31,135 nucleotides of DNA from IMG/VR virus record IMGVR_UViG_3300020439_000043, positions 1-31,135 of that record. One strand, 5' to 3'. The notes beneath the pieces were generated by a model. That model had not been told where the DNA came from and searched no databases. It saw only the letters and a list, made by a program, of their open reading frames with translations. The translations under genes were made by a program, and so were the position numbers. This DNA comes from a virus. Below are positions 1 through 28,360 of the stretch, piece after piece (within the stretch, counting starts at the first letter, position 1; each line of letters opens with the position of its first letter).

Positions 1-277
1 GAAGATCCACTTGTGCCAGAAGTTCCACTTGTGCCAGAAGTTCCGCTTGTGCCAGAAGACCCGCTAGAACCAGAAGATCCACTAGAACCAGAAGATCCGC
101 TAGAACCAGAAGATCCACCAGAACCAGATGATCCACTAGAACCAGAAGATCCACTAGAACCAGAAGATCCACTAGAACCAGAAGATCCACTTGTGCCAGA
201 AGTACCATTTGTACCAGAAGATCCATTAGTGCCGGAAGATCCATTAGTGCCACTACTTCCAGATGTACCAGAAGGAC
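1..277 (-). repeat. Collagen-like Gly-X-Y block 2 (about 30 triplets, continues past the edge)
   Basis: A second tandem Gly-Ser-Ser, Gly-Thr-Ser and Gly-Thr-Asn triplet run lies in the same frame as block 1. It is separated from block 1 by the beta module at about 290-525. It is still repeating at base 1, so its full length is unknown. Confidence 0.9.
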
Positions 278-3200
278 CGGCTGCAGCATTTAAATTTGTA
301 TCCCAAGAAGAATAAGTACCAGAACCAGTAATTGAAATAACTTCTAAAGTTAAAGACCCATTATTTATGTTATACGAAACAACGTAACCATCAAAACGAT
401 TGCTAGAGTTGTGAGAAACAAGCACAGATTGTCCATTTGTGTAACTTAATCCTGCACTTGTCGTTAAAGTGGTTTGAGCGTTTACTGATAAACTTGATAA
501 ATTTATAGAAGTACTAGATGTTCCAACATAAGTAGAACTAACTCCTGAAGTACCGCTTGTGCCAGAAGTGCCACTAGTTCCTGATGTACCACTAGTACCA
601 GAAGAACCGCTAGATCCTGATGTACCACTGGTTCCAGAAGACCCATTAGTTCCAGAAGACCCATTAGTTCCAGAAGACCCATTAGTTCCAGAAGTTCCGC
701 TTGTGCCAGAAGTCCCGCTTGTACCAGAAGTTCCACTTGTGCCAGAAGTTCCGCTTGTACCAGAAGTTCCACTTGTACCAGAAGTCCCGCTTGTCCCATC
801 AGTACCATCTGATCCACTAGATCCAGAAGTTCCGCTTGTGCCAGAAGTCCCACTTGTCCCATCAGTACCATCTGACCCACTTGATCCAGAAGTACCGCTT
901 GTTCCAGAAGTCCCACTTGTACCAGAAGTTCCAGTTCCACCACCACTCAAACCAGAAGTAGAAAAACTAATTAATTTAGTATCAGCATCCCATGTTAAAA
1001 CTTTATCTGCGTTTTGATCTTCTGAAACTATATCTACATATATGTCTCCACCAACGTGCAATTGCCCAGAAGGTCTTAATTTGTTAACACCAACTCTACC
1101 AGTGTATTCTACTACGAAATGAGTTCCGTTATCATTTTTTAATTTAAAATCTCCAGAATCCGAAGCTTCATTAAATAAACTCCAAGTAATTGGGCCCGTA
1201 ATAGGACCACTACCAAAAGAACTATGTAATTGAAAATAAGAATCATATGCCTCTGGAGCAGAAATTCTACCAATTACATTTGCTAAGCCAGAACCATTGA
1301 TATCTAAAGGAAAAGCAGGTTCTGTAGTATTAACCCCAAAATTACCATCATCCACAAATAAGTCATAACCACTTAAATGAAAAACAGAAACATCTTCTTT
1401 TAAACCACTTATATAATCGCCGGTTACACCAACACCTATATCACCAGATTCATTTTGATAAATAACAGAATCATATATTAAATCATCGCCGCTGAAATAA
1501 GGAATAAAACCACTTGTACCTGAACCAGCTACTACATATTTACCAGAAAAAATTTCTTCTACATTATTTAATATCTGACCTGAAGTAAATAAAAGTGAAT
1601 CTGAAAAATCAGAATAAGCTGTTGAATCATACACCGCTCTAACTTTTACTTCGTAATTTTTATTAGGCTTAACAGGAAATTTAACAAAAGACTCATGTTG
1701 AGAAAAAACAAAATCCACTTCTCCAGTAACGCCTGTTATCCTTTTAGCCATTAACGTACCTGTTTCAAAATCTATTTTTAATGGAGAATGCCCAGACAAC
1801 CCACTAAAACCAGAAGGAGGATAATCTTCAGGATTTAAATATTCACCAGTGTATTTTTGACCACTATAAGTCCCTGTGTATACACTATTTTCATATTTAC
1901 CCCCCGTAGGTAAAAAAACAAAACTGTTTGTTCCTGTATCATGAGCGTATATCAAATATAGTTCAGTAGAATCTAAATAACCAGAAGCAATTCTAATTTC
2001 ACTCAATATTTCCACACCGCTACCCGAAGGATATTCCCCTAAAGGTAAAGAACCATAATTATCAACAAATAAAGTATGATCTGACCATTTTATCCCCGAA
2101 TCTCCGTAAGCGCTAAAAACACCACTCGAATCTAACCCTGAATAGTAATTATCTTTATAAAGATTTGAAACTTTCCCACTTCCAGTTCCATAAACAATCG
2201 AGCTAATGCCTTGTATTTTAGCAGCTTTAGAAGTTAAAATGTAAGATGAGCTATTACTTTCATTACCTGAAATATAATCATCACCATACTCATTAATAAA
2301 AGTTTCAAAACTTAATCTTTTATCTATTTTAGGCGTTTGCCACTTAACAAAAGCGTCTAATTGTAAATCTTTGTCATACTTGTTTTGAGATTTAAATATA
2401 GACCCCGTTATATCTTGAATTTTATCTATGTAAGTATAATTTTCGTATATATTCTTTTTTAAAGTAGGCGATAAATAGTAATTACCTGTACTATAATAAT
2501 CTCTGGGTATTATTAAGTAACCAAAAGGGTAAGAATAAGAAGACCAAGGGTTTAGATTTTTAGGGACTGAAAGTTCTACAAATTTTTGACTTTTATTATT
2601 TTCTTGCAGGAAAGATACAGTCTTAGAAACCAGAACTTGATCGGATATTTTATTAAAATCACCTGTAAAATCACCAGTAAAAGTAAAAACGTCAAGCTCT
2701 TTTAAACTTTGAAAACTAGAAACTAAAGGGTTTATAATAAAAGGATGTTCACTCACAACCTCTACACCCGTCACATCTGACTTCAAAAAATTAAATAAAA
2801 CACTGTAATTACTAGCATAATCGCTATCACCAGTTCCGTTTACAGATTCATCAAAATTAACAATTGAAAAATCTAAAAACACTTCCCTTAACTGATCAGC
2901 CCCGGACAACACTTCACCATTTGTTAATACAAAATTTCCAGTACTCTCATACAGAAGGCCATCTAAAAAATTGTAAAATTCTGATGTATTAAAATTAAAA
3001 AAGGTGCCCTTTAAATTCGCATACTCATCTTCCAGCAAAACCCTGTCTTTAGTAAAGACAGATACTTTGATTCCTGAAAAATTAGGATCAAAATTTGCTG
3101 TATTAAAATAAGATTTCCCATTAGCTGGATTTTTAATGGTAAAATTTAAAATTAACGAATCTTGCGCTATGTTAATTTTTTTAACGTTAGCTAAAGAAGA

Positions 3201-3323
3201 TAAATTATAATCTTCGGGGTATGCCGATTCAATAAAAGTAGAATTAACTCTACCCGCAAGGCTTAAATTCTCAAACTTAAAGTTATCATAACTATTGCTT
3301 ATATTTCCTGTTACTGCCTCCAT
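1..3323 (-). CDS. Collagen-like tail fibre protein (3' end beyond the window)
   Basis: I read this frame codon by codon from the ATG at 3323-3321 to the window edge and found no stop, giving 1107 residues so far. The start lies one base after the stop of the J-like gene, so the two are probably co-translated. The N-terminal ~500 residues are a beta-rich region I do not recognise. A fibronectin-like stretch (YEVKVRAVYDSTAYS) follows near 1590-1680. Two motifs of the G(I/V)xxxxPxxxLxVxG type common in phage fibres come next: FGVNTTEPAFPLDING near 1310-1350 and VGVNKLRPSGQLHVGG near 1057-1110. Then come a Gly-X-Y block, a ~80-residue beta module ending SGTYSSW, and a second Gly-X-Y block running off the edge. 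Gly-X-Y runs form trimeric rods in phage fibres, so this is probably a side or tip fibre that contacts the host. The receptor-binding end is presumably outside the window. Confidence 0.85.
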   Translation of the reverse strand, partial: MEAVTGNISNSYDNFKFENLSLAGRVNSTFIESAYPEDYNLSSLANVKKINIAQDSLILNFTIKNPANGKSYFNTANFDPNFSGIKVSVFTKDRVLLEDEYANLKGTFFNFNTSEFYNFLDGLLYESTGNFVLTNGEVLSGADQLREVFLDFSIVNFDESVNGTGDSDYASNYSVLFNFLKSDVTGVEVVSEHPFIINPLVSSFQSLKELDVFTFTGDFTGDFNKISDQVLVSKTVSFLQENNKSQKFVELSVPKNLNPWSSYSYPFGYLIIPRDYYSTGNYYLSPTLKKNIYENYTYIDKIQDITGSIFKSQNKYDKDLQLDAFVKWQTPKIDKRLSFETFINEYGDDYISGNESNSSSYILTSKAAKIQGISSIVYGTGSGKVSNLYKDNYYSGLDSSGVFSAYGDSGIKWSDHTLFVDNYGSLPLGEYPSGSGVEILSEIRIASGYLDSTELYLIYAHDTGTNSFVFLPTGGKYENSVYTGTYSGQKYTGEYLNPEDYPPSGFSGLSGHSPLKIDFETGTLMAKRITGVTGEVDFVFSQHESFVKFPVKPNKNYEVKVRAVYDSTAYSDFSDSLLFTSGQILNNVEEIFSGKYVVAGSGTSGFIPYFSGDDLIYDSVIYQNESGDIGVGVTGDYISGLKEDVSVFHLSGYDLFVDDGNFGVNTTEPAFPLDINGSGLANVIGRISAPEAYDSYFQLHSSFGSGPITGPITWSLFNEASDSGDFKLKNDNGTHFVVEYTGRVGVNKLRPSGQLHVGGDIYVDIVSEDQNADKVLTWDADTKLISFSTSGLSGGGTGTSGTSGTSGTSGTSGSSGSDGTDGTSGTSGTSGTSGSSGSDGTDGTSGTSGTSGTSGTSGTSGTSGTSGTSGTSGTSGTSGTNGSSGTNGSSGTNGSSGTSGTSGSSGSSGTSGTSGTSGTSGTSGTSGVSSTYVGTSSTSINLSSLSVNAQTTLTTSAGLSYTNGQSVLVSHNSSNRFDGYVVSYNINNGSLTLEVISITGSGTYSSWDTNLNAAAGPSGTSGSSGTNGSSGTNGSSGTNGTSGTSGSSGSSGSSGSSGSSGSSGSSGSGGSSGSSGSSGSSGSSGSSGSSGTSGTSGTSGTSGTSGS
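545..941 (-). repeat. Collagen-like Gly-X-Y block 1 (about 44 triplets)
   Basis: On the minus strand a 9-bp periodic sequence encodes nearly uninterrupted Gly-Thr-Ser and Gly-Ser-Ser triplets, with GSDGTDG units occurring twice (near 790-830 and 850-885). Proline is absent from the X and Y positions, and Thr, Ser, Asp and Asn dominate, as in bacterial and phage collagen-like proteins. Synonymous codons differ between units, so most of the block is old and held by selection. A few neighbouring units (near 640-690) are almost identical in DNA and could be recent slippage copies. Confidence 0.9.
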
Positions 3324-6300: not shown

Positions 6301-7173
6301 CATAAGCATGAACAATGCTTTTTTTGAAACTTTGTCTCTAGTATCGGTAGAAGGGTCCAAACCAAACCATTTATCCCCTAAAGTCTCGATCCAATTTGTC
6401 TCTCTCGTTGTTTTATACCCTATTGTCACAGCATCAATACCCGCTGCATTTGAAATATATTCATAATACGTTCCTTTCAGCGAGCTTGCATTATCATTCC
6501 ACATGTATTCACTCGGAGACCAATTTAAAAAATCGCTAACTCTTTTATATTCTAAAAAACCCTGAAGTTGAAACACCTGCTCTGGCGCAGCATACTCAAG
6601 GGCCTCATCACGCTCCTGCGCTCCAAGCCCATTTTCGTAAAAATGATTTCCATCTATTACCTGCATACCATGGCCGTTAGCTACAGTAGGCTTATTGTAT
6701 TTTACGTTTAAGGTATTCTCGCATAAATATAATCTACTATTGTACCTATATATAGTAGAAGGATAATCTAAAACATTTTGACTTTCATCTCCGTAAACAA
6801 TATCAAACCCTGCGGTAACAAAGTTAAATCTTCTTAATTTAGTATCTATTATCGGAACATTATTAAGGTAAACTCCTTTCCCAAGAGCAACATTACTCAA
6901 ATTTTTTGTATTTACATAACTTAAAGCATTTCCTTTTTTGTCAACTAAACCCTCAATAGGGCCTTCACATAAAATTTCTGTACTTTTATATAATTCATCA
7001 CTTTCTAACGCATATATGTCCAAGTTTTTTATGTTATAATATTTTTCGCCGCCATATTCTGCCCTTTCAACTTCTTCAATAATGCCAGCTTCATTCAAAT
7101 TACCATGTAAATCGGCATAGTCTTCAGGAATCCCCCCAACAAAAAACTCTTCTTTAAAATTATCTTCATTCAT
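3325..7173 (-). CDS. Lambda J-like central tail tip / host-specificity protein
   Basis: This 1282-residue protein is the large baseplate-hub or tail-tip protein that closes the tube and connects it to host recognition (lambda J is about 1130 residues). Family signatures are the N-terminal ILCEGPIEGLV at residues 67-77, followed by YLNNVPI at 102-108. A second signature block is TDNPAWVYYDLCTNTRYGIG (491-510), then W522 and a YKIAKYCDELV segment (525-536). These match the conserved core of J-type tail tip proteins (COG4733). It lacks visible fibronectin or collagen repeats, so receptor binding may have moved to the next gene, the collagen-like fibre. Its start overlaps the I-like gene by an ATGA-type 4-base overlap, and it ends one base before the fibre ATG. 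Family assignment is strong; the C-terminal ~500 residues are not recognised in detail. Confidence 0.9.
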   Translation of the reverse strand: MNEDNFKEEFFVGGIPEDYADLHGNLNEAGIIEEVERAEYGGEKYYNIKNLDIYALESDELYKSTEILCEGPIEGLVDKKGNALSYVNTKNLSNVALGKGVYLNNVPIIDTKLRRFNFVTAGFDIVYGDESQNVLDYPSTIYRYNSRLYLCENTLNVKYNKPTVANGHGMQVIDGNHFYENGLGAQERDEALEYAAPEQVFQLQGFLEYKRVSDFLNWSPSEYMWNDNASSLKGTYYEYISNAAGIDAVTIGYKTTRETNWIETLGDKWFGLDPSTDTRDKVSKKALFMLMPSIVERARSSSNPFRHKIRNKYCDLIKVQIGIDELYRQSGEAEGNGVGSTQPVEFGLCVEIAKSNSAEAYYCIVGFDMAYSRDSFVLDIPIQLNLNINSSDEYVLSVFPLMPRVNPEDSEVFVKLRVASIIEQVRRRGQFSYPYTVCAKTAISSRHFGTDASRSYDLKLLKVKIPNNYDAEARSYEGNWVGKFDGFLKWTDNPAWVYYDLCTNTRYGIGKGKIFDKDLNKWDLYKIAKYCDELVVSKTPYKYVPDEFIINEHNHNEIFIERKGRNLRDFMAQYPPVLNSTYVEVDGEIVFGSVAPSDLPDGSFVYNFQEENGGPHNSMIFLFDLEDSDGKKIKTNYKKIIWSVVEGVLRDNNDFTVIDDDDSFSYSTHYKITLINDFGPRKIFERDKTRTLLEGFKSNVSQQGDLLVALSTKSQIENALTLADKNTEDGAKDYILNEYEDKYKSLDPEGIGAFVRNEVSKSIFSGTGEDEEVRDSLNKNKKIFGTCVPRAENYRDALEPRFSANLLIENETEALKILDDISSIFRGISYYKNGYLTATVDVDKEPSYIFNNTNVKDGLFTYSSGSLDGNYSVAKVLYKDKFNLFNDEVEIVEDPDLVKNYGIVPKEILGFGVTSKDQAKRLGVWLLATNRFENQTVTFTTDIQGLLLKPSDVIQIEDDFKSFISLQGRVVTINYSSNYVTVDRKLDVNLAGSKIKFLMDKNYKSVDEIQDSSESSELDRKDILELKIDRIENNTSRVYIDTDYNFDGFTSVLASTPFIIEDVNSNKVNSGLYKIVTITEEDINEYSLFCIKHNPVKYENVDRDELVFNANRKDDIVSFSRADSVKEFDLTRLGFGAGGVDDFYTVSRIQGVIDTSECDYAIVEDESYITAETDAGTFAVLNIDFNEILSRVISRADKDNYDLPYYQEALSILEDGGGFLCKILAKGQSVTFKISQDDQNKIKSVFLGRYPDATAQPFVISHVSGIKIYLYNKLNQIVDIKA

Positions 7174-7724
7174 AATGCATCGTTACTGTAAGGTGAATAT
7201 TGAGTAAACGGAGAGTCCGTGCCTTCTCTGTTTTCTTTCTTCCTAGGTACTGAAATTATATTATTACTAATAACTGAAGATCCTATTTTCAATCTTCCAT
7301 AACCTATTGGCACAGGTATATTTCTATTTAATACATTTCTAATATTACCTAAAACTGTTGAAGTTGACTGCCTATCTTTGAAAGCTTTTGGACTTAAAGC
7401 TTTTAATAAAAGGAAAGATAAAACAATTAAAACTAAACCTATTATTATTAAAACAACCGGACTGCCACCTTGAACCACGGGCACAATTTCCACTTTATCT
7501 TTTGGTTTTAAAATTTTAGCATTTATTAAATGAGACGGAAGAAAATTCCCATTGACTAAAATAGCGAAATGAGTGCAAAACTTATTTAAGTCATAGTAAT
7601 ATTTATTAACTTTCCCAGTATTAGCCTCTATAGCTTCAAAGACCTCAATAATGGAAGAAGCCTCCAAAGACCATTTTTCCCCTAATTTTTTACCCAAAAT
7701 ACCTCTTAAATTGACACTAATCAT
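7170..7724 (-). CDS. Lambda I-like tail assembly protein
   Basis: This 184-residue protein has a beta-grasp (ubiquitin/ThiS-like) N-terminus at about 1-85 ending EIVPVVQGG. A strongly hydrophobic segment follows at about 88-108 (VVLIIIGLVLIVLSFLLL). A conserved tail block, IPVPIGYGRLKIGSSVIS, lies at about 136-153. That order is the signature of lambda tail protein I, which acts with J, K and L in tail-tip assembly but is not known to stay in the virion. The start overlaps the JAMM gene by 8 bases and the end overlaps the J-like gene by 4, as expected for tightly coupled translation. The hydrophobic segment could be a membrane span; in this family it is usual and its role is unclear. Confidence 0.87.
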   Translation of the reverse strand: MISVNLRGILGKKLGEKWSLEASSIIEVFEAIEANTGKVNKYYYDLNKFCTHFAILVNGNFLPSHLINAKILKPKDKVEIVPVVQGGSPVVLIIIGLVLIVLSFLLLKALSPKAFKDRQSTSTVLGNIRNVLNRNIPVPIGYGRLKIGSSVISNNIISVPRKKENREGTDSPFTQYSPYSNDAL

Positions 7725-8049
7725 TTTTTTTATAGTAAAACTTTTTATTATTTACACTATATAATAACATATCAAGCTGAAAATAAAACTGATTTTCTAT
7801 ATCCCACTCAGAAAATCCTTCGTGAGTTATTTTATCAGGATGACTATGGAAAATAATAATATCATCTTCCCACATGCATTCTTTAGGGTCTATTAAAAAA
7901 AAATTCTCAGGATCTGGATGAACGTTTTCTTTTTCATAAAAAACTCCACTACTAGAAATGTAACCACACACCTCTTTTTTTGATTTTTCTGATAAATTTT
8001 TTAATAAATCTAAAATTTCTTTTTTAACCTCCGGGTAATCTGTATTCAT
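7717..8049 (-). CDS. Lambda K-like JAMM-domain protein (peptidase-like)
   Basis: Read from the ATG at 8049-8047 this is 110 residues. It carries a complete JAMM/MPN+ metallopeptidase signature: Glu26 in KEVCGYI, His68-Ser-His70-Pro, then Ser80-x-x-Asp83. Lambda K has this domain plus a C-terminal NlpC/P60 domain; here the protein stops right after the JAMM fold, so the NlpC/P60 half is absent. An upstream ATG at 8094 would add 15 residues. I prefer 8049 because the extra residues lie wholly inside the L-like coding end and JAMM proteins normally begin close to the helix preceding the Glu. Neither start has a Shine-Dalgarno sequence. It sits in the expected L-K-I order. In this position it probably processes or helps assemble tail-tip proteins, or acts on the cell wall; the substrate is unknown. 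Confidence 0.82.
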   Translation of the reverse strand: MNTDYPEVKKEILDLLKNLSEKSKKEVCGYISSSGVFYEKENVHPDPENFFLIDPKECMWEDDIIIFHSHPDKITHEGFSEWDIENQFYFQLDMLLYSVNNKKFYYKKND

Positions 8050-9985
8050 ATCCAACTGTACCGGGGAATCCACCAAAAGGTATAGGTAAGTCATTAGGCG
8101 GAAATCTTATTTGACAACCTGATAATTTTTTAGAACATCTATCTTCAATCCATATACTTGTAAAATCTAAAGGATTTTTATCTTTAGAAGCGGCAATACA
8201 AACAAAAAACCTAGAAGGAATTTCATCAGTTTTTTGATTGTAAGCTTCATTAAAATCAAAATCTATTTGCGAATCTATTTTCACAAAATCTCCTTTTTCA
8301 TAATACTCTTCTGAACTATAATCCCCTCTATATCGTAAATTTTTTAAGCCATAACTTTCATTATAATAACCACCTTTATCTCTTCTAAAAGTGAAAGTTT
8401 TATCATTGTCGTCCGCAACAGGAACGCCCATATTCCCATCAGGTATCAATTGCCCTTCTTCATCAAGAAAAAATGACTTACTTTTAACATCTCGAAAATT
8501 AAATCTATTATCATTTAAGAATTGAGAAGCATTATTAGAAGTAGACGAAAAAGCGTCTTCGATATCATATTTTAATTGCAAATATGATGATACTGCATTC
8601 GCTTCTTTAGCCGATAACTTTTTATTAAAGACAATTATTTCATACACAACACACTCACTTTCTTCATTTTCTTTAGAATTTATACCAAAGTTAGGAAAAA
8701 CATCAAACCCTTTTTTAACTTTGTAAAGAAAACCATTTTGAGAATAAAGTGATGGATCAGAAAACCGCTGAGAAGCAAGCTGACAACTTAAAGAGTATAA
8801 ATTTAATTTATTAATAGCTTTCTTAAAAGGAATTCCTTGTTTTTTTAACCCATTAAAACCACTTATTACGTTTACTTGTTGATTATCATAACCTAAAGCT
8901 ATGTCATTAGTTTCCCCGGTAGAAGATGTTAAAACTCTTCTGGCTAAACTATTATTAGAATAAAGTTTATTCACTAAAGCGGAAACGTAAAATACTGTTA
9001 AACCCGAGTTAAAAGACTGACCACTAACAGGGGACAGACTTAAAGAGGATGTATCATATTCATTTGTTGGAGATTTGGTTCCTTTTACAGTAAAATATGC
9101 CCCAGCTTTACCCGCAGCTATTAACCCTCCAGTATCATTCTGCTCTGTTCCATTAAAAGACAAAACATTATTTAAAACTATGTTACTAGGTTGCAAAATT
9201 ATGCCTCCGTTATTTGAGTTTATTGAACTAGCGGAATTAGACCATTGAGTTAATTTATTAAAAACTAAATTTTTTCCCGATTCATTAACATAAGAAACCG
9301 AATTACTTATTGTTCTGCTTGATTCAGGGTGGAGCCATAATGCTAAATTAATATCAATATTAAGCTCCGAGCAAACATTACTAAAGTCACTATAGTTTCT
9401 GCCTTCAACAATTTTAATACTAGGTCCATCGTAATTTAATTTTTTTCCATAATTACAACCCTTACCCCTATATTGCCACTGACAAGAATCGTTATAAACT
9501 TTTCTAGCTGGAACAGTTAAACCATCTACATCAAACACATTAGATAAAGAAAACTCAACTGTATCTCTATTTTCTGATATTTTTTTATTTATAATATATT
9601 TTTCATGAATTAAATACCCGGTGTAGGTTTTTGAGGGTAAAGTTTTGCGGCTACTACCCTGAAAATTAACATCATCTAAATCTCGCGTAAATATTTTTTT
9701 TCTATCGAACCTTCTTCCGACTAAATCACCCCTGTCTCTAATTATTTCGCTAATATATTTGTTAACATTAGACACAGAAAGCGTAGGCCTATTATGTTTA
9801 CCTTGAGAATCATAAACTACGCTAGATATTTCACACGGAATAAAAAGAAATGTCTTACCCTGAAAAACCACATCTCTAGTTAAATTTTTAGATCCGTGAA
9901 ACCTAAAATATCCATCAAGGTCCCCTAATTTAACTTCAAATAAATCTATTATTTGCTCATTATTTAATAAAAAACTGTCTGCCAT
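8024..9985 (-). CDS. Lambda L-like tail tip protein with a large LamG-like insertion
   Basis: This 653-residue protein has an L-type N-terminus (about 1-180) ending in C168-QWQYRGKG-C177. The very C-terminus carries C617-SKKLSG-C624 followed by RFPPND and PFGGFPG, which is the normal end of L. Lambda L binds an iron-sulfur cluster through four cysteines. The two spacings here, 9 and 7, match those I recall for lambda (173, 182, 205, 212). About 440 residues separate the two pairs. Most of that insert (about 203-480) looks like a concanavalin/LamG jelly roll, ending YEIIVFNKKLSAKEANAVSS and YLQLKYDI. A short RGDYSSEEYYEKGDF segment (553-567) resembles small carbohydrate-binding modules. The role is tail-tip assembly, and the insert probably projects from the tip and may bind surface glycans (inference). 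Confidence 0.87.
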   Translation of the reverse strand: MADSFLLNNEQIIDLFEVKLGDLDGYFRFHGSKNLTRDVVFQGKTFLFIPCEISSVVYDSQGKHNRPTLSVSNVNKYISEIIRDRGDLVGRRFDRKKIFTRDLDDVNFQGSSRKTLPSKTYTGYLIHEKYIINKKISENRDTVEFSLSNVFDVDGLTVPARKVYNDSCQWQYRGKGCNYGKKLNYDGPSIKIVEGRNYSDFSNVCSELNIDINLALWLHPESSRTISNSVSYVNESGKNLVFNKLTQWSNSASSINSNNGGIILQPSNIVLNNVLSFNGTEQNDTGGLIAAGKAGAYFTVKGTKSPTNEYDTSSLSLSPVSGQSFNSGLTVFYVSALVNKLYSNNSLARRVLTSSTGETNDIALGYDNQQVNVISGFNGLKKQGIPFKKAINKLNLYSLSCQLASQRFSDPSLYSQNGFLYKVKKGFDVFPNFGINSKENEESECVVYEIIVFNKKLSAKEANAVSSYLQLKYDIEDAFSSTSNNASQFLNDNRFNFRDVKSKSFFLDEEGQLIPDGNMGVPVADDNDKTFTFRRDKGGYYNESYGLKNLRYRGDYSSEEYYEKGDFVKIDSQIDFDFNEAYNQKTDEIPSRFFVCIAASKDKNPLDFTSIWIEDRCSKKLSGCQIRFPPNDLPIPFGGFPGTVGYEYRLPGG

Positions 9986-18961: not shown

Positions 18962-21900
18962 TTAACCCCTTAAATCATCTTTGTATAATTCTCCTCCGTA
19001 CCTTTTTTCATTAGACATGATTCCAATTACCATAGAATTAATTTGTTTTGCCATTTCTTTAGAAAATTTAATATCGTTCTGCTTGTAGCTTGTAGTGTCT
19101 GCGCCATAAGTTGTTGCACCATTTCTGTCTACGTTAATAGAAATGCTTGTGGAATTATTTGTATTGTTGGTTGTCGAGCTGTTAGATAAAGCTTCACCTC
19201 CAGCTTGATACGCGCCAGCATTCATAGAATTCATTGTCCCTAATCCATATTTTTTTACAGCTTTATTATTCATCACATATTCACCACCTGTAAGCATCGC
19301 AGGAATTGTATCACTTAACCTAGAACCATATGGAACAAAACCTCCTAAATTATAACCAATCAAACCCCCCTGTTGCCTTTTTCCTCTTTGCGTAACAAAT
19401 TCTCTTTGAAAATTACTTCCTGTATTAAACATCCTTTGAAACACACCTGTTTTAGGGGCCGTTTGTACACCAAAACCCTGAGAAGATATACCAGAACTTA
19501 TATTCCTCATTCCACTAAGGCCGCTAGTAGATTTTTGTAATACTGAATCCTGCACAGGACCTACGAAATTCTGCATATTAGCGGCCAAAGTATCAATGGG
19601 CACATTGTTAATGCTTATGCTCGAAGCATTTTGCTGCATGAACCTGCCAAAAGAATAATCGCTTTTTTGAGCTGCAGCCATCATTGCATCTTGAGTCGCT
19701 GTATCTTTAGCAGTCATTGCCCCTTGATTTAAAGCTGATTTACCTTGAGCTCCAGCTTGACTAGCACTACTATAACCAGATAAACCAGCACCTAAAAACA
19801 TACTTCCTACCGCACCCACAATAGAACTAATAAGCTGAGCTTGCCTCATTTTTCTATTGTATTTTTTTTCAATTTTCTTCATGTGCCTTTCGAAACGTTT
19901 TTCTTTTAAATTTTGGAAATAAGCGTCATTTTGAAGAGCAAAATCAGTGTAATTGCTTGGATCTATACCTGAAGCAGTATTGCCATAATCGTAAAAAGCC
20001 TCTCCAGTAAATTCTCCTGAAATTGTCTTTCCAGCCATGGAAGAAAAGCTTCCTCCCCTATTGAATCTTGGAGCCATTTTAAAGTTTAACTTATCTAAAG
20101 CTCTAGGTCCTCCCATTTTCATAACAGCGTTCCTGTTTAAAACGTATTCGCCATCCTCTAATAAAGCTAAATTTCTGTCTCCAGTTCTATTACCACTAAC
20201 ATACATTCCGTTTTGAGCTTTTATAAGACCTCCAGCCTGATTACCAAAAAGACCCGGAGCTATAGAACCTAAGGTTCTAGCAACTGCAGCTCGCATCACT
20301 TCTTTCATAATCATGCGACCAAAATCAATCGCTACATCTTCGAAAGCTTCTCCAATTTTTTTAGTACCTTGAGCAACCTCTGTTAAAGCGTTAGCCATGC
20401 CATCAGCAAATTGATTAGGAATATTTCTTCCTAAATTATCTAAAATAGTATCCGACTGACTCTTCATATCGAGGAAACCATTTTTCATGTTATTAACAAA
20501 TCCAGAAGACCTCTGAAAATCACTTGCAGATTGAGCTGCAGCTGCTTCAAAAACAGTAGCTGAAGAACTAAGTTCTTCTGAAGCTAATTTTAAATTATTT
20601 AACTGAACCTCATAACCCTGCTTTATAGTTTCATCAGTTGCATTTTCTATAGCCGCTTCTGTTTGAGCTATAGCGTCTGCTATTGTTGTGGCTGAATTAA
20701 GAGACACACCCTGCAAAGAACCAACATTAAAATTAGATCTATTATTAAAATTATTCTGGGCGGCTATAACATTTTTCATATTATTACTTGCTGCCGATAT
20801 TCTATTTCCATCCATAGCTGCTACTGCATCTTTTGTTTCTTGAGCATACATTGCTAAAGTCAAGTCCAACACAGCTTGAGTATTTCTATCTTGGGCATTT
20901 ATGTTAGCTTGCTGAGCGGCTATTTCTATTGCACTTCTTTGAGCTTCTGCTATAGCTTGTTTTTGTCGCATAGCTTGCTCTTTTTCAAATATAGATCTTT
21001 CATCAGCTTGACGAGCTATAAAAGCTTCTCCCCTACCTAATCCGGCATACCTAAATTGACTACCCGCAGCAATTCTTTGCAGCTCTACAGCTTGCTGATC
21101 TTGTATCCTTGTTGATTCAACGGCATACCTTAAATCTTCTGCTGCAGCTTTTTGCTGTAAGGTTATTCTTAGTCTTTCTTGATCTAGTTTTATTTGCTCG
21201 TCAGCTATTTGCTTGTTTAAATTAGCGCTAAACTCTTCCAGTCTAGATGTTTCAATCGCTAAATTTAATTTATTCTGTTCTTCTTCTGTTAAGTTTTCTA
21301 ATTTTTCTCTAGCGCCATCAATTGACTGAATAACAGTATCGTATTTAGGGGCTAATTTCCCATCTTCTCCCGCGAAAAGACTTGTAACAAAATTAGTTAT
21401 ATCTTCTCTTGTTTTATTGGCGAAATCTTCAGAATTTAAAAATGTACTTAACTGTTCTTGTTGACCACCTTCCCCACCGCTCAAAGTTAATCCTTGGCTA
21501 GTTATTTCTTTAAAAACCCCTTGCTTAAAATTAGTTTGACCAGCTTGAATATTTAATGCAGATAACCCTCTAGCCTGTGACTCAGCTCTATTAGCATTAC
21601 CTACAGCTATATCTCTGGCAAAAGATGCTTGGTTAGCCCTAAGAGCGAATTTACTTATATCATTCGCATTGTTAATAACAGAAGAAAAAACATTACTATT
21701 AATTTCATTAAGCTTAGAGTAAACCATGTTTTGCAAAGATGAATCAGCTTGAAAACTTCTTATTCTATCATTTATTCCTTCTAGCTCTTGTGTTAAACGA
21801 TTTTGCAAGTTAGTTCTAAAAGCTCTGTAGTTAGAAATCAAAGTTTCTCTTCCTTGTGCCTGACTTGAAGCTTTATCTATATTTTCCTTACGCTTCTGCA

Positions 21901-24900
21901 TTAAAGACACTAAGTTATTTATAATAGCGGCTCCCACCACATTGCCACTATCTTCTAACTGATTAAATAATCCAGCTAAATTAGAAGCTGTGCCTTCATC
22001 TAAAGATTGCTCGCCTAAAGAAGTTAAATAATCCCTTATATCTGATTCGTCAAAGGTTATCTCCATTTTCTCTCTTCTTAAAGCTGATTGTAGACCTTGT
22101 AATTGTTCTTCAGTTAAAGATCCCAAATCTTCAAAAGTTTGAGAAAAAGCATTTAAAATTTTTCCTTCCTGCCCTTCAGCTAACGCAGTATAATTTCTAA
22201 CGCTAACTGCCGGAGCACCGGGTCCAGCGCTAAAAACACCTGCCCCATTACTTATTTGGACTGTCCTTTGTTCTGCCGTAAATCCTAGTTGATTTAAAGA
22301 TTTTACGCTCGACCCAGCCTCACCCAAAGAAGCGGCCAAAACGTTTTCTTCAGCTCTTCTGCTGCCCTGTCTTCTTTCTTTTTCGTAAGTCTTTAAAGCC
22401 TCAGTTAATTTTCCAACATCTCCACCAGCTTCATCAAAAGCTTTCGATAAATTAACGTCTTTTATTTTTCTAAACTCATCTTCTAAAATGGTATTAGCTT
22501 TAGCTAATTTTTCAGGATCAGTTTCCGTTTCTAAAGTTTTTAACGCTTGTATATAATTCTGCGCTGCGCCTGTATTCTCTTGGGTAGTTTGATTGTATTT
22601 ATCCAAAATCTGCCCAAACTCTTCTGCGCTCAAAGACATAGCCCCTATCGCAGAAGCAGCAGTTATAGCTGCTGTAGCTACACCAGCACCAATTAAACCC
22701 GGAACACCAAATTGACCACCTATTGCAAAAGCTGTAGAAGCTGTAGTTAAGCCAGTGCTGAGAACATTTTGACCAGCTCTTTCTCCAGCAGACATGTCTG
22801 TCCTCTGCCTATTACCAAATGCAGCTTGCTCAATAAAACCAGCCACAAGTGGTCCACCTATCGCCAAAGCAGTCCCGGCAGCTGCAAAACCACCTCGGCC
22901 CTGAGATTCAGGCTTATTATTTTGTTTGGTTTTTTTGTCTTCTGATCTAGCTCTAGCACTAATGTTTTTTCTTAATCTCTTTTGAGATTCGAGTGTTAAT
23001 TTATTTTCGTCAGATAATTTATCTGTTGAAGCTATTAATTCCCTTCTTGTCAAAGCTCCTTCTTTGTATAACCTTATTAAATTCTTAAGCTCTAAATCTA
23101 ATTTTTTCTGCGAATCAGTTGTTAAATCAATGGCTTTTTTAACGCCTGTTGCAACGTCAATCCCAGCGCCTTCTGTCGTTTGGTATTTTGCCGCAAAGTT
23201 AGGTACATAACCACCATAAACCATTCCAGCAGCACTTTGATTTCTATATGAATCTTTTAAAGCGTTACTTAAACCACCGTGATCTGCGATAGCAGATGCG
23301 AATGTTGGCTGGCTCTCATTTCTAACATGAGGAAACGGACTTTCAGAATAAATAGCTTTTTGACCGCTAATAAATTCTTCGAGATCCATAACTTCACCTT
23401 TATAAGCAAGATTAGGAATGAATCCACCACTAGCACCTCTTCCTTTAGCAGCGGTGGTCCTAAAAATATAGTTTTTCCATTTTCTTTTTGGATTAAGAAT
23501 TTCAGGATTATTTTCTATCGCTTTAACAAATTTATTTTGAAGACCGGCTAAAGTAGCTCCGGGGTCACCAGCTTTCATTTCATACATTTCCCCAGCAGAT
23601 AAAGAATAACCATCTATACGCGCAGATGTTCCACCTTTTAAAGCTGCAGAGGAAACTACGTCTGGTCTAGCCGGAAGAGCAAAAGGAGCGCCCAGCGAAG
23701 TTGTCCCTTTTAATTTACCACTTCTAAGTAAGTTTAATATAAATTTTTCATAAGCTGTTCCTTGAGCTATATTTAACCTACCTCCACTTCTTCCACCTCT
23801 AAAACCTTCAATATCCCAAGGCACGTAAGCCATTGTATAATTCAAAGCGTTAACGGCGGCGGCTCTTTTATTTTTTCTAGCTTCTATCTTAGAGCCTGAA
23901 GTAGAGTACCCCATTGCTTGGGCTTGTTGTTGAGTAAGTTTTCCTGATCTAAGCCCTCTTGCTATAGCAGCATTATTTAATTCGCCAGTGAATGGATTAC
24001 GATAAGCTGCTGCGAAATTCGGAATATAACCACCGTATCTGCTACCTCTACTAGATTTACTTTTTACTGTTGGGTAATTAGCATTTTCTATAAGCATAGT
24101 CCTATTTTTTAAAGTTTCTTGGTTAGGACTTGTAAACATTTTGTTAAACCTGCTGTCGCTTAAATTTTCGGCTACAGCTCTAGCTGTTTTAAATGGAGTT
24201 ATCTCTGCATCATATCCACCCCCCTTAGCTTCTATTAATTTTGTTATCTTAGATCCCGTATTTATCATGTCTACGGCAGAACTAAAATCTCCCTTTAGTC
24301 CATGAGCTAATTGTATGCGACCAAACTTACCTGATTTTATAATAGCAGCTTCGAATGCTTCACCGAAAGCTTTTTTAGATAAACCGCTATCTCTAACATT
24401 AGTAACCCTTTGAAAACCCGGAACTTTAGTCGCATCAAACTTAACAACCTTATCAAAACCAAATTTCACTTGGTCTTCTAAATTAATATTGCTCTTCGAT
24501 AATTTATTACCTTTTCTATTAATTTCAGCATATTTTAATAATTCTGTTCTAGATCTAGAAAATGCATCTAAATCACCTAAATCCATATATCCTTTTGATA
24601 AGCTAGCAAAATTAGGAACAAATCCTCTATATTGATAAGGATCTACGCCAACCTGCTTCACTGCATTTGCTCTGTGTAATTTTCCAGCCCTAGAATTCCT
24701 AGGGGGATTAATAAACGGCTGCGCAAATCCGGGCACATATTTAACATCTTCAGCGGTATTCATCACCCCACCAACAGGAGAATTAACAACCTTACCCGGA
24801 GCATATCCGCCAGCAAAAGCGCCAGCTCTTTCTGCCATTCTTGTGGATGCTGGAATATAGCCACCGCTTCTTGTTTGTAAGCCTCTCGCTCCAACAGAAA

Positions 24901-26497
24901 CCCCTTGGCCCCTTAAAGTCGTAGCCAAAGATCCAGCCAACCTTAACTGCTCTCTATATTGATTAGTTTGCTGCTGAGCTACTCCTAATAATATCTTCGC
25001 TTGCTGAGCTTGATTTCCTGTATTACCTAAAATAGATTTAGATATATTACTTTCTGTTTGAAGTATGCCGAGAATAGCTTGTTCTAAATTTCTTCTTTTT
25101 TGCGTTTCTGTCGTTATGCCAGCTATTTGAGGTAAAGCTTGCGCAACATAAGTAAAAGAACTTTGAACTAATTTAAATAAAGTGTAAAAAGCAGCTACTG
25201 CACCCGGGCCTGCTAAAACATTTCTTATCCCTTTTAATAATCCATTAGCCAATTGACCTCCTAAGTCATCACCAGTTATTAAATTATTAATAGATTCTGT
25301 TATTGCGTTAGCAGCCCTAGCCGCTGATTTAACTAAAGGATCAAATGTTACACTACCTATAGTAGAAGCTAATTGTTGAGTGCTATTCCCAACTTGCACC
25401 AATAAAGCTGAGACTGTTTGATTTAATCTTGCATTAGCAACGGCAGCTTCATTTGTCGCTCTTGTTCCCTTAACTAAAGCATCTGCATAAATACTCTGCT
25501 CAGAATTTAAATCACTTATAACAGCCTTTAAAATATTAACCTGATAAACACCAGCAACTTGTTCTGATAATTGAGCTCTTTGAGCGTCAGCTAATTTATC
25601 GTAAGCGCCAGCAAAATTTTGAAGAATAGTAGTCGCCGGTAAGGTGTTGCCTTGGATATCCCTAACAGCAATATTAAATTCTTCCAATCTGTCTAGAGTA
25701 TCACTACGTTGTAAGCGAGTAAAAATTGTTTTTAATGCGTTACCAATAACAGCACCACCTCTAGCCGTTCTTTGCTGTGCTGCTGCTATTAAAGCGTTTA
25801 ACTGATCTATGTCAGCGCCAGCTTCTTGGGCCGCTTGACCAGTACGAGCCAAACCTTCGGATAAATCTCTAGCGCTAACAGCAAAAGCTTGTTCAACTGC
25901 AACTAATTTATTTAAAACCTGAGTGGTGTTAATTCCACTTTTAGCGAATCCGTTGACCGTAGCAGTTAAAGCTGCAACGGAAGCTTCAGCTCCTAAACCA
26001 GCTAGACGAGTTAATGTTAAAGCGTCGTTAGTTCTTCTTAAGGTTTCCTCCGCACTTAAACCTTGGCGAGAAAATTCAAGTAAAGCCTTTGAAGCATCGT
26101 TAAAAGAAGTCGCCGTTCTTTTGCTAATATCAAATAAAGCTCTGCCAAATTCCTGAAGCTGACCTGTTGATAAATTTAAAATACGATTAACATCCGTTAA
26201 ATTCTTTTCAACCTCAATAGTAGACTTAGCCAAAGCCCTGAAACTAGCTATTGCTGTACCCAAAACAGCTGTGGAAGCGCCAAATGCTATAACACGCGCA
26301 TTAGAAGCGGCCATTGCTGAACCAAAATCATCAACGGCTCCAGTTATTCTGCCTAAAGGCTGAGTAAAAGATCGCTCATTAATATTCAAATTAAGCGTGT
26401 TAGACTTAGCAAATCTTTGATTAAAAGCATTTACGCCTTGTTGAATAGAATTAATTAAGGCTTGCTGATTTGCTTGAACGTTTACTTGAACTGCCAT
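18962..26497 (-). CDS. Tape measure protein carrying two nuclease-like domains
   Basis: At 2511 residues this is the tail-length ruler. Residues ~60-400 match the TP901-type tape measure core (AFGASTAVLGTAIASFRALA, then NLTDVNRILNLSTGQLQEFG). Residues ~545-1105 form an unusual non-helical insert with repeated GG(Y/F)(I/V)PNFA motifs. It holds two PD-(D/E)XK-like segments (E716, D743, E756-x-K758; and E917, D962, E973-x-K975). Hydrophobic stretches at ~1204-1222, 1251-1290 and 2221-2245 could insert into the inner membrane during ejection. Long Gln/Ala/Glu-rich helices fill ~1295-2080. Two GEYV modules (2088-2138, 2376-2426) resemble the recurrent GGxVPxxxxD-GEYV block of tape measure C-termini. 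No lysozyme or peptidase domain is seen. It follows the chaperone frames by 38 bp. The tape-measure call is firm; the nuclease call is by motif only. Confidence 0.95.
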   Translation of the reverse strand: MAVQVNVQANQQALINSIQQGVNAFNQRFAKSNTLNLNINERSFTQPLGRITGAVDDFGSAMAASNARVIAFGASTAVLGTAIASFRALAKSTIEVEKNLTDVNRILNLSTGQLQEFGRALFDISKRTATSFNDASKALLEFSRQGLSAEETLRRTNDALTLTRLAGLGAEASVAALTATVNGFAKSGINTTQVLNKLVAVEQAFAVSARDLSEGLARTGQAAQEAGADIDQLNALIAAAQQRTARGGAVIGNALKTIFTRLQRSDTLDRLEEFNIAVRDIQGNTLPATTILQNFAGAYDKLADAQRAQLSEQVAGVYQVNILKAVISDLNSEQSIYADALVKGTRATNEAAVANARLNQTVSALLVQVGNSTQQLASTIGSVTFDPLVKSAARAANAITESINNLITGDDLGGQLANGLLKGIRNVLAGPGAVAAFYTLFKLVQSSFTYVAQALPQIAGITTETQKRRNLEQAILGILQTESNISKSILGNTGNQAQQAKILLGVAQQQTNQYREQLRLAGSLATTLRGQGVSVGARGLQTRSGGYIPASTRMAERAGAFAGGYAPGKVVNSPVGGVMNTAEDVKYVPGFAQPFINPPRNSRAGKLHRANAVKQVGVDPYQYRGFVPNFASLSKGYMDLGDLDAFSRSRTELLKYAEINRKGNKLSKSNINLEDQVKFGFDKVVKFDATKVPGFQRVTNVRDSGLSKKAFGEAFEAAIIKSGKFGRIQLAHGLKGDFSSAVDMINTGSKITKLIEAKGGGYDAEITPFKTARAVAENLSDSRFNKMFTSPNQETLKNRTMLIENANYPTVKSKSSRGSRYGGYIPNFAAAYRNPFTGELNNAAIARGLRSGKLTQQQAQAMGYSTSGSKIEARKNKRAAAVNALNYTMAYVPWDIEGFRGGRSGGRLNIAQGTAYEKFILNLLRSGKLKGTTSLGAPFALPARPDVVSSAALKGGTSARIDGYSLSAGEMYEMKAGDPGATLAGLQNKFVKAIENNPEILNPKRKWKNYIFRTTAAKGRGASGGFIPNLAYKGEVMDLEEFISGQKAIYSESPFPHVRNESQPTFASAIADHGGLSNALKDSYRNQSAAGMVYGGYVPNFAAKYQTTEGAGIDVATGVKKAIDLTTDSQKKLDLELKNLIRLYKEGALTRRELIASTDKLSDENKLTLESQKRLRKNISARARSEDKKTKQNNKPESQGRGGFAAAGTALAIGGPLVAGFIEQAAFGNRQRTDMSAGERAGQNVLSTGLTTASTAFAIGGQFGVPGLIGAGVATAAITAASAIGAMSLSAEEFGQILDKYNQTTQENTGAAQNYIQALKTLETETDPEKLAKANTILEDEFRKIKDVNLSKAFDEAGGDVGKLTEALKTYEKERRQGSRRAEENVLAASLGEAGSSVKSLNQLGFTAEQRTVQISNGAGVFSAGPGAPAVSVRNYTALAEGQEGKILNAFSQTFEDLGSLTEEQLQGLQSALRREKMEITFDESDIRDYLTSLGEQSLDEGTASNLAGLFNQLEDSGNVVGAAIINNLVSLMQKRKENIDKASSQAQGRETLISNYRAFRTNLQNRLTQELEGINDRIRSFQADSSLQNMVYSKLNEINSNVFSSVINNANDISKFALRANQASFARDIAVGNANRAESQARGLSALNIQAGQTNFKQGVFKEITSQGLTLSGGEGGQQEQLSTFLNSEDFANKTREDITNFVTSLFAGEDGKLAPKYDTVIQSIDGAREKLENLTEEEQNKLNLAIETSRLEEFSANLNKQIADEQIKLDQERLRITLQQKAAAEDLRYAVESTRIQDQQAVELQRIAAGSQFRYAGLGRGEAFIARQADERSIFEKEQAMRQKQAIAEAQRSAIEIAAQQANINAQDRNTQAVLDLTLAMYAQETKDAVAAMDGNRISAASNNMKNVIAAQNNFNNRSNFNVGSLQGVSLNSATTIADAIAQTEAAIENATDETIKQGYEVQLNNLKLASEELSSSATVFEAAAAQSASDFQRSSGFVNNMKNGFLDMKSQSDTILDNLGRNIPNQFADGMANALTEVAQGTKKIGEAFEDVAIDFGRMIMKEVMRAAVARTLGSIAPGLFGNQAGGLIKAQNGMYVSGNRTGDRNLALLEDGEYVLNRNAVMKMGGPRALDKLNFKMAPRFNRGGSFSSMAGKTISGEFTGEAFYDYGNTASGIDPSNYTDFALQNDAYFQNLKEKRFERHMKKIEKKYNRKMRQAQLISSIVGAVGSMFLGAGLSGYSSASQAGAQGKSALNQGAMTAKDTATQDAMMAAAQKSDYSFGRFMQQNASSISINNVPIDTLAANMQNFVGPVQDSVLQKSTSGLSGMRNISSGISSQGFGVQTAPKTGVFQRMFNTGSNFQREFVTQRGKRQQGGLIGYNLGGFVPYGSRLSDTIPAMLTGGEYVMNNKAVKKYGLGTMNSMNAGAYQAGGEALSNSSTTNNTNNSTSISINVDRNGATTYGADTTSYKQNDIKFSKEMAKQINSMVIGIMSNEKRYGGELYKDDLRG
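23468..23785 (-). other. Candidate PD-(D/E)XK nuclease domain B inside the tape measure protein
   Basis: Residues ~905-1010 have GTAYEKFILNLL (Glu917), ARIDGYSLSAGE (Asp962) and MYEMKAGD (Glu973-x-Lys975), then GLQNKFVKAIE with the Gln seen after the catalytic Lys in many members of this fold. The layout parallels domain A, but similarity outside the motifs is weak, so the two are either old duplicates or separate acquisitions. PNFA-type motifs follow at 1024-1031. Confidence 0.52.
24068..24400 (-). other. Candidate PD-(D/E)XK nuclease domain A inside the tape measure protein
   Basis: Residues ~700-810 read FGEAFEAAII, then SAVDMI, then KLIEAKGGGYDAE. A helix with Glu716, a strand with Asp743 and a strand with Glu756-x-Lys758 is the order of the restriction-endonuclease-like active site. 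PNFA motifs flank it (625-631 and 822-829). Positions of Glu756 and Lys758 were checked against the DNA (24230-24232 and 24224-24226). The family call is by pattern; Asp737 is an alternative metal ligand. Confidence 0.5.
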
Positions 26498-26535: not shown

Positions 26536-27606
26536 TTATCCAAACAATTTCATCATGTCTTCCATAGAAAGTGAGCCGCCTTTTTTCTTAGCTGCTTCAC
26601 TTAAAGAATTAGTTCGCTCACCTTCTCCCTTAAAGCCAATGTACTCCATGTCTTCTTCCGTAGCCCCGACTATAGTTTGGGCGGCACCTTCTTTTTCGCC
26701 TTTTTGATCCATTATCTTTTTAGCATTTTCATTTGCATTTACATAATCAATTATTCTTTCTGGATCTTTTTTGATGTGTTCAGGCATTTTGTCGTTATTA
26801 TTAAAAATATTTCTAAAATACCTTGAATAAATAAGAAGTTTTAGCTGATTGTAACTTAAATCACATATAGGCTTGCCATAAAACTCATGAGCATGCTCCG
26901 CAAACGGCATAAATAAATTGTAAAAATCTTGTAATACTATATATTGTATAGATTCATCATTAATATTAGAATATACATTATTATATTCTTTTATTATTTG
27001 AAACAAATCTTCAGAATCAATGTCGTCAAACTCTTGCTCTGAATAAGCTAAATTTTGCAACTTTTCGTCCCTATACAAACATTTCAAAATATAAAAATCA
27101 TTTACTCTTTCTTCAGCATAAGATTCGGCGGTTCTAGAAAATAACGCCGCTCTTTCGTTTTTCATTTCATTCAGCTTTTTAATTCCTTCGGCGATGTCTT
27201 TATTTAATCTTTGAATTTCTTTTTTTAGATACTGAACTTTTTTATTGTTTTTTAATTGTTCAATAAAATCTTCCTGCTGTTTAATTCTGCTTTCTTGTTT
27301 TGCGCTCCATTCACCTTCTTCAACCAATCTTTCCAAAGTGTCGTCGTGTGTAGGCACACCTCTTTCTTTTGCTTCTTCAAGATATCTATCGTATACATCA
27401 TCAATATCTATCTGATCGTCGAAAGATATATGCTTTAAATAAAAAGAATTCCCTAAGACATTTATCTTAGAGAATCCTCTTTTTATATCCCTAAAGGCCC
27501 TTCTTAAAGAATTACTCTTCTCCTGAGTTATCAGATTTTTCTGGCTCTTCTCCTGATCCTTCTGGCTCTGATTGCTCTGGTTCTGGTTCTGGCTCTGTTG
27601 TTCCAT
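26536..27606 (-). CDS. Tail assembly chaperone, downstream frame (probable frameshift extension)
   Basis: This frame encodes up to 356 residues and lies directly upstream of the tape measure gene, the usual place of the lambda T/GT-type chaperone extension. Its first ~30 residues (MEQQSQNQNQSNQ) are just the other-frame reading of the acidic end of the upstream gene, which argues that it is expressed by frameshifting rather than from its own ATG. The distinctive sequence begins at about residue 33 (SLRRAFRDIKRGFSKINV). A coiled coil occupies ~101-153. The C-terminal part ends with SMEDMMKLFG. A TAG codon stands immediately before the ATG in the same frame, so any frameshift must occur within the 95-base overlap. 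Chaperones of this kind coat the tape measure and recruit tube subunits. A weak GAG a few bases upstream of the ATG leaves independent initiation possible. Confidence 0.75.
   Translation of the reverse strand: MEQQSQNQNQSNQSQKDQEKSQKNLITQEKSNSLRRAFRDIKRGFSKINVLGNSFYLKHISFDDQIDIDDVYDRYLEEAKERGVPTHDDTLERLVEEGEWSAKQESRIKQQEDFIEQLKNNKKVQYLKKEIQRLNKDIAEGIKKLNEMKNERAALFSRTAESYAEERVNDFYILKCLYRDEKLQNLAYSEQEFDDIDSEDLFQIIKEYNNVYSNINDESIQYIVLQDFYNLFMPFAEHAHEFYGKPICDLSYNQLKLLIYSRYFRNIFNNNDKMPEHIKKDPERIIDYVNANENAKKIMDQKGEKEGAAQTIVGATEEDMEYIGFKGEGERTNSLSEAAKKKGGSLSMEDMMKLFG
27512..27606 (-). other. Probable programmed frameshift window (+1 or -2) in the chaperone
   Basis: The upstream frame ends with TAA at 27514-27512 and the downstream frame opens after TAG at 27609-27607, so the two overlap only here. 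The change from one frame to the other is +1, or equally -2. Candidate sites: the A5 run at 27540-27536 in GAAAAAT, where a lysyl-tRNA can re-pair two bases back; GGAGAAGAG at 27523-27515, where a glutamyl-tRNA on GAA can re-pair on GAG; and an AGGAG two bases upstream of GAG TAA, recalling the internal Shine-Dalgarno plus stop of prfB-type +1 shifting. Confidence 0.55.
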
Positions 27607-28360
27607 CTATTTCTCTAATAATCCTATCAAATTCTTCAGTATCAATATTACTAGTAAAAAACCAATGACTTACGATACTAGCTAATTTACTATAACATTT
27701 GTTATAAATTTCATTATCTGAATCTTCATAATCAAACATAACAGCTTCTCTTTGTTCGAAATTTTTACCCGGGAACAATGGCTCAAACTGATCACCCATT
27801 GTCTCATCGCTGTAAAAAGTAAGGTTTAGAATATACCATAAAATAGCTCTATTTTGAGCTTTAATATCAGCGGTATGATTAAAAAGAGTAATATAACTCG
27901 TTTCTTTTTCCATTAAAGTTTTACGCTTAGCTAAAATCTTCGACGTAAGATCACTCGCTTTTTCTTTTTCTTTTTCCGTTCTTTCTGATTCTGGTTTTAA
28001 ATTAAGAATGCTTAATTCGGCCTGAAGATCTCTCAACTCATCTGCAGCGCCAACCATAGATTTAGCATCAGATTCGCTAATTAAACCTCCAGTATCAGAG
28101 TATTTATTTAAAAGCATTGCTTTTGTTAAAATACCACTTCTAATACAACGACTCATTTCGACACTAAATTCCATATCAGCTTCCTGCATTTGTCGGCGCG
28201 AAGGCTGATTGATTTTAATTTTTACAGGTATCTTTTTCGTTACCTTTTCCTTATAAGAACGAGTGGTTTCTTCCCCTGCTTCGTTCTTTACTTTTTCTGT
28301 TTTTTCTTCTTCAATCTCAGCTAATCTGTTGACTGTGAATGTATGTAAAACTTTGGCCAT
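27512..28360 (-). CDS. Tail assembly chaperone, upstream frame (lambda G-like by position)
   Basis: This 282-residue protein is the first gene of the leftward arm and overlaps the next frame by 95 bases, the classic layout of tail assembly chaperones before a tape measure gene. It is charged and mostly helical. The N-terminus (1-60) is a Lys/Glu-rich beta segment, ~100-160 is probably a coiled coil, and a hydrophobic helix lies at 170-182 (NRAILWYILNLTF). The last ~30 residues are acidic Glu-Pro and Glu-Ser repeats. No database family is evident by eye; the call rests on gene order and the overlap. The start has no clear Shine-Dalgarno sequence and follows the divergent promoter region at 28361-28423. 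Confidence 0.78.
   Translation of the reverse strand: MAKVLHTFTVNRLAEIEEEKTEKVKNEAGEETTRSYKEKVTKKIPVKIKINQPSRRQMQEADMEFSVEMSRCIRSGILTKAMLLNKYSDTGGLISESDAKSMVGAADELRDLQAELSILNLKPESERTEKEKEKASDLTSKILAKRKTLMEKETSYITLFNHTADIKAQNRAILWYILNLTFYSDETMGDQFEPLFPGKNFEQREAVMFDYEDSDNEIYNKCYSKLASIVSHWFFTSNIDTEEFDRIIREIDGTTEPEPEPEQSEPEGSGEEPEKSDNSGEE

Follow-up and report, generated by a model that had tools for sequence, protein, structure and literature searches.

Tape measure proteins of uncultured tailed phages carry an exchangeable, motif-punctuated cargo region with candidate PD-(D/E)XK-type nucleases

The tape measure protein (TMP) described here carries a row of cassettes delimited by copies of a short motif, and its relatives exchange such cassettes at the motifs and keep catalytic-type residues within them. 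The explanation toward which we lean, if only slightly, is that this is an exchangeable cargo region of the TMP whose usual load is a nuclease of the PD-(D/E)XK type and which is injected with the genome into the new host. Whether it amounts to a previously undescribed mode of modular effector delivery, in which the TMP takes motif-punctuated, recombining cassettes with a near-constant PD-(D/E)XK-type nuclease into the host together with the genome, seems to us evenly balanced.

Organization of the tape measure protein

The window, by which we mean the whole stretch of DNA analyzed (31,135 nucleotides), corresponds to a virus record of 31 kb that includes a module of tail genes. Its TMP (2511 aa; 18962..26497, on the minus strand like all other features of the window given below) is an ORF with a Pfam PhageMin_Tail match at residues 123-316 (E=8e-26) and a match to the PHROG tail length tape measure families (E=1e-40), and its neighbors include J-, I- and K-like as well as Phage_min_tail proteins, all in agreement with the tape measure identity assigned by the initial annotation. 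The N-terminal part, which we call the chassis (residues 1-624; 24626..26497), was delimited by its BLAST conservation in relatives and ends in a pre-cassette element that starts with GGYIP (residues 545-624). The C-terminal part (residues 1103-2511; 18962..23191) is the presumed tail-length ruler.

Between these two parts, four copies of G[FY][IV]PN[FL]A, located by translation and motif statistics, divide the insert into three cassettes (191, 195 and 64 residues). The copies read GFVPNFA (residues 625-631; 24605..24625), GYIPNFA (823-829; 24011..24031), GFIPNLA (1025-1031; 23405..23425) and GYVPNFA (1096-1102; 23192..23212) and enclose cassette 1 (632-822; 24032..24604), cassette 2 (830-1024; 23426..24010) and the short cassette 3 (1032-1095; 23213..23404), the last being one of a group of ten among the matches listed. 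The residues that had been singled out as possible active sites are located as annotated, with E716, D743 and E756-A-K758 in cassette 1 and E917, D962, E973-M-K975 and Q987 in cassette 2, and each suspected nuclease thus occupies one whole cassette. Similarly, the insert that had been placed at about residues 545-1105 has real features at its edges, namely the GGYIP at 545 and the last GYVPNFA at 1096-1102. The repeated motif at residues 625, 823, 1025 and 1096 had been missed; it sets the limits of both domains and is of greater informative value.

A short cassette of ca. 55-70 aa frequently occupies the final position ahead of the ruler part, as in the window (23213-23404, minus strand) and at L033:3896-4102, L044:3549-3755, L057:7812-8018, L085:9046-9243 and L107:707-907. 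Two sequence types of this cassette were seen, that of the window and an 'NPLxxAISRExAAGV...NPxGLxVxNxRDEP' type, which may be distant relatives.

A boundary motif in giant tape measure proteins

A degenerate DNA pattern for GG[FY][IMV]PNFA, run against IMG/VR contigs, matches at least 120 stretches of viral contigs, and nearly all of the matches listed fall within very long (giant) TMP-like frames. The 310 motif copies found in about 120 TMP-like ORFs among these matches have the consensus [AS]GG[FY][IV]PNFA and occur 1 to 8 times per TMP, the first copy usually near residue 630. Conservation of the motif's G, P and N is preset, as these residues were fixed by the search expression. Not preset are the A/S at position -2, the G/S at position -1 (except that the -1 G belongs to the DNA pattern for those copies that this pattern retrieved) and the sharp loss of conservation just past the motif. 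Within each of five viral records (82-211 kb), the motif is confined to one short TMP stretch, and a control with the pattern written backwards gave zero matches in the same records.

Eight boundary motifs, including the variants GLIPNFA and GYIPNYG, are found in L130 (whose TMP frame, starting near locus base 10000, spans 3963 aa) and in L132, two contigs binned as Halobacteriovorax whose cargo regions, together with that of L111, are among the largest among the matches listed.

The motif probably serves as punctuation, and our guess would be a flexible joint or a docking element, possibly also a processing site. In the strongest form of the last option, it would be a proteolytic site whose cleavage, either before assembly or afterwards, releases the cassettes to act as free proteins. 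Such cleavage would suit a short motif with small flanking residues repeated between all cassettes, and the same tail module encodes a lambda K-like protein and a gpI-like protein of ThiS fold. However, K-like and gpI-like tail proteins are generic in siphophages, and the motif resembles GG-[FY]-[VI]-P elements at residue 545 and near residue 2385 of the window TMP, so that its copies may derive from an ancestral element of the TMP; we therefore regard excision of the cassettes as very unlikely.

Cassettes are exchanged on a conserved chassis

Among the matches listed, the chassis is conserved in 62 of 64 sequences with complete N-termini, is detected by BLAST in 90 of 118 motif-bearing ORFs and is mostly 33-87% identical to that of the window TMP. 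Homologues of cassette 1 close to the window's own are limited to L003/L004 among these matches, and cassette 2 is present only in L003/L004 and L025, while L006, L014, L120, L121 and L123 (57-69% chassis identity) carry different cargo at the same place. Along the alignment of the window with L003, identity changes from 94% over residues 541-624 to 44% in cassette 1, 85% in cassette 2, 95% in cassette 3 and 41% past the last motif; in L025, cassette 1 (20% identity) is an unrelated replacement between flanks of 79% and 78%. The coincidence of these identity breakpoints with the motifs argues strongly for an exchange of cassettes.

Chassis length is constant (CV 6%) and the cassette span varies with a CV of 34% (n=34 for the comparison of span with the C-terminal part). 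A constant delivery part is thus combined with variable cargo, the chassis being kept and the cassettes being unrelated or swapped at the motifs. What had appeared as an odd insert of one protein is instead a motif-delimited, exchangeable cargo region common to a lineage of TMPs, and the recurrence of the same motif around other cargo in more than 100 related viral contigs suggests that swappable enzymes are loaded into the tail and driven into the host along with the phage DNA.

Two candidate nuclease domains in the window

The E...D...E-x-K pattern that first drew attention to cassettes 1 and 2 was rejected as evidence in its own right, since E-x(15-50)-D-x(8-25)-E-x-K occurs at chance level: at least one occurrence is found in 51% of shuffles of residues 545-1105, as many as observed are found in 24%, and the remainder of the window TMP holds ten. 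The pattern becomes significant only because it is conserved in relatives. For cassette 1, the first HMM pass retrieved L115 at 4e-5 (best reversed decoy 0.5), followed by L121 and L091, and these remote homologues in three other phages keep the E and E-x-K unchanged. Across the five distant sequences of this family, G-x-x-F-E, E-x-K-x-G and K-x-x-R-x-x-x-E-N are invariant, and the Asp is present in all five, in L091 only after a two-residue shift made by eye. The catalytic-type residues thus do not vary freely among homologues, and their retention in distant relatives disfavors the dead active site that the initial annotation had entertained as an alternative.

For cassette 2, the conserved residues are kept in two close relatives only (among the matches listed), and, since all its relatives are 78-85% identical to it, this conservation test is uninformative. 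An iterated search at 1e-3 with reversed decoys found nothing beyond close relatives, and one at E=0.01 was discarded because it drifted into the conserved pre-cassette region. The candidate assignment of cassette 2 comes from the profile comparison described below, which bears on cassette 1 as well. No nuclease model of Pfam, PHROG, NCBIfam or PADLOC matched the window TMP or the cargo region of its closest relative, and a sequence search of the PDB gave chance matches only.

Cargo families across the lineage

For relatives, 92 cargo regions were scanned against Pfam, PHROGs, NCBIfam and PADLOC; matches were few and mostly weak, namely to a HIGH-type nucleotidyltransferase-associated domain (1e-7), GNAT acetyltransferase, SNase, P-loop AAA, polynucleotide kinase and DSBA. 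Sequence clustering identifies a single divergent family, fam0, as the dominant cargo, with 66 domains at a median identity of 20% among the matches listed. The top-conserved columns of its 58 non-redundant members (median identity 20%) are D (58/58), G (58/58), K (57/58), E (56/58, the other two having D), K/Q (56/56), F/Y and, two residues ahead of the conserved K, a D or E (57/58). The resulting order is E - D - [DE]-x-K - K/Q, with E/D, D and [DE]-x-K present in at least 56 of the 58 non-redundant sequences and a helical stretch separating D from [DE]-x-K. The families of cassettes 1 and 2 as well as famB and famC show the order D...E-x-K, some with a clear E before it. In famD, the E and D are present and D-x-[HYE] or D-x-K is found where [DE]-x-K is expected, a pattern by which this family may be a variant or inactive.

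This conservation bears on the idea that the cassettes lack catalytic activity and act as spacers or structural elements, making the tape longer or giving it its shape. TMPs tolerate length changes, and the cassette span indeed varies freely, with no correlation (rho 0.04, n=34) to C-terminal length. Spacers would be expected to lose catalytic-type residues, however, whereas the catalytic-type acids and lysines are the top-conserved columns of 58 domains at 20% identity, and we consider spacers the least probable of the alternatives discussed here.

One or more nuclease-like cassettes are present in 28 of 32 complete chassis-bearing TMPs among the matches listed, a sample that was selected by motif and not by nuclease content and that covers motif-bearing TMPs. 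Such constancy would be more typical of a core function than of a changing weapon, and it is conceivable that the nuclease serves phage DNA or assembly (e.g., by acting on branched packaging or injection intermediates) instead of being an anti-host effector; this would fit the VRR_NUC-like nucleases to which the window cassettes are compared below, which are structure-specific. Unlike housekeeping enzymes, though, the nuclease families are swapped, differ among relatives and adjoin non-nuclease cargo, which makes a role on the phage's own DNA or in assembly quite unlikely in our view.

Adjoining the fam0 nuclease-like cassette in several TMPs is a conserved P-loop cassette of ca. 154 aa ('KYIYDSDRI...NLLIGPAGSGKST...QIAGTxYAPLNQFDF'), found at L017:6852-7313, L027:1503-1970, L055:9576-10037, L057:7326-7787, L075:9835-10302, L096:3943-4410 and L107:2783-3250. 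An ADP-ribosyltransferase-like look of cassettes in L111 and L095 was noted by eye only and set aside, the L111 cassette having no Pfam match.

Profile comparison and predicted fold

Profiles of three known branches of the PD-(D/E)XK superfamily, YraN (UPF0102), Mrr_cat and VRR_NUC, were built from genome searches and detect each other at E=0.0008-0.017. Against VRR_NUC, cassette 2 scores E=0.0036 and the cassette-1 family E=0.006, values that lie in the range of these true pairs, though at low probabilities (6-9%); reversed profile controls were mostly >0.1, with one at E=0.02. These alignments place E-x-K on E-x-K and, for cassette 2, also L-Q-x-K-F on L-Q-x-K-F. The cassette-1 family and cassette 2 match each other at E=0.0011 over 124 columns (0.03 when reversed). 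The fam0 profile had no match among the known superfamily profiles. Comparisons by hhalign of the cassette-1 family with famB (98.5%) and of fam0 with famD (89%) were not taken as independent evidence, since the underlying alignments share members and the comparisons with famB and famD are partly circular.

The domains of the window thus resemble VRR_NUC, YraN and Mrr_cat in the order E, D, E-x-K, and VRR_NUC additionally in the L-Q-x-K-F element; they differ from these branches in that no curated model is significant here, that they sit in a TMP and that their fold is predicted from sequence. We take the profile similarity of cassettes 1 and 2 to the superfamily as supportive, not as proof.

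Structure prediction adds little to this picture. The AlphaFold model of the window's cassettes 1 and 2, made from a three-sequence alignment, has a pLDDT of 35 and is not interpretable, and a model of fam0 with a pLDDT of 82 is mostly helical with strands of only two residues. Foldseek searches of the latter against PDB and BFVD found no restriction-endonuclease-like match, an absence that leaves this fold possible. The proposal of two PD-(D/E)XK-like domains in the window is hence supported by sequence, through the conserved residues and suggestive profile scores, but not at the level of the fold. The helical fam0 model, like the helical stretch between its D and [DE]-x-K, would be better accommodated if the cassettes were metal-dependent enzymes of another fold or of an undescribed family whose E / D / [DE]-x-K site arose by convergence. 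We nevertheless find this unlikely, because the residues match the superfamily signature in both sequence and type, down to the K/Q after [DE]-x-K, and because the scores of the window cassettes against VRR_NUC fall where those of genuine superfamily pairs lie.

Distribution and candidate hosts

Among the 50,697 records of isolated phages in INPHARED, no cassette match was found, and the chassis is only 22-34% identical to TMPs of cultured phages, mainly those of Bacillus and Lactococcus; the lineage is one of uncultured tailed phages. At 36-49% identity, the chassis occurs in contigs binned with Halobacteriovorax, Neomarinimicrobiota, Flavobacteria, Verrucomicrobiales and a proteobacterium, taxa that we treat as leads and not as hosts because the binning of phage contigs is unreliable.

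A possible route into the host and comparison with known systems

TMPs occupy the tail lumen, get ejected and reach the inner membrane (summarized in PMC13277306), and for lambda, proximity labeling during injection has placed the TMP at the inner membrane (PMC13190303). Thermus phage P23-45 sets a precedent for enzymatic cargo in that its TMP gp96 carries a fused, working virion RNA polymerase (PMC10770324). From this ejection and the P23-45 precedent we infer that the cassettes travel into the cell along with the genome and that the nuclease works in the newly infected cell. Specifically, chassis and ruler would flank one or more cassettes separated by [AS]GG[FY][IV]PNFA in a TMP that is stored in the tail lumen, exits the virion before the DNA and brings the cassettes to or through the host inner membrane, and the cassette domains would then fold and act inside the newly infected host. 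Their most likely targets would be DNA other than the incoming phage genome, be it of the host, a plasmid or a competing phage, or particular DNA structures, and the phage genome itself could be protected by structure specificity, DNA modification or timing. An injected anti-host or anti-competitor role, as already suggested by the initial annotation, is plausible by analogy with these systems.

The usual view of TMPs is that of rulers and channels. If our explanation is true, those of one widespread phage lineage also carry cargo, exchanged according to a simple grammar, and a probable nuclease is one of the first things that the cell receives. This would show what siphophages inject besides DNA and would bear on host defenses at the injection site such as SNIPE, and a seven-residue motif would open a large catalogue of unannotated cargo domains.

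To the best of our knowledge, no PNFA-type boundary motif is known in the polyvalent proteins of phages and conjugative elements. Those proteins are similar in being large injected chains that combine unrelated enzyme domains, though their description does not mention tape measure proteins (PMC5512222). P23-45 gp96 is comparable as an enzyme built into a TMP that is present in the virion and acts early in the new host, which is predicted for the cassettes, but it has a single N-terminal RNA polymerase and no nuclease, and neither exchangeable cassettes nor a boundary motif have been described for it (PMC10770324). A TMP-like delivery part joined to an interchangeable functional domain is also seen in Sle1 (PMC13277306) and in Tme of S. 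davawensis (PMC11126660); these belong to contractile injection systems, which are bacterial nanomachines, and have one C-terminal domain, in contrast to the several internal cassettes of a phage TMP. Likewise, polymorphic toxins swap toxin domains by recombination on a conserved delivery part (PMC3482391), but the cargo described here is internal, serial and motif-punctuated. It is this combination of internal, serial, motif-punctuated cassettes within a TMP that sets the system apart from enzyme-bearing TMPs and from polyvalent or polymorphic effectors, which it otherwise resembles in its proposed mode of action. In the open-access literature (with subscription papers and preprints outside its scope), we found no earlier account of nuclease or cassette cargo in TMPs.

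Other genes of the window

Directly upstream of the TMP gene, two genes overlap in different frames (26536-27606 and 27512-28360, both on the minus strand) and are arranged like the lambda G/GT tail assembly chaperones made by frameshifting; a PHROG search with their products gave no match. Elsewhere in the window, two adjoining genes (7170-7724 and 7717-8094, both on the minus strand) encode a gpI-like tail assembly protein, whose ThiS-type domain ends close to a GG, and a small tail protein that is lambda-K-like and has an HSHPD motif; the two products are a possible processing pair. At the end of the contig, 3-3323 (minus strand) encodes a protein with long GTSGTSGTSG/SGSSGSSG tandem repeats that continues past the contig end and is probably a fiber or adhesin; the opposite-strand ORFs at this location are by-products of the repeat.
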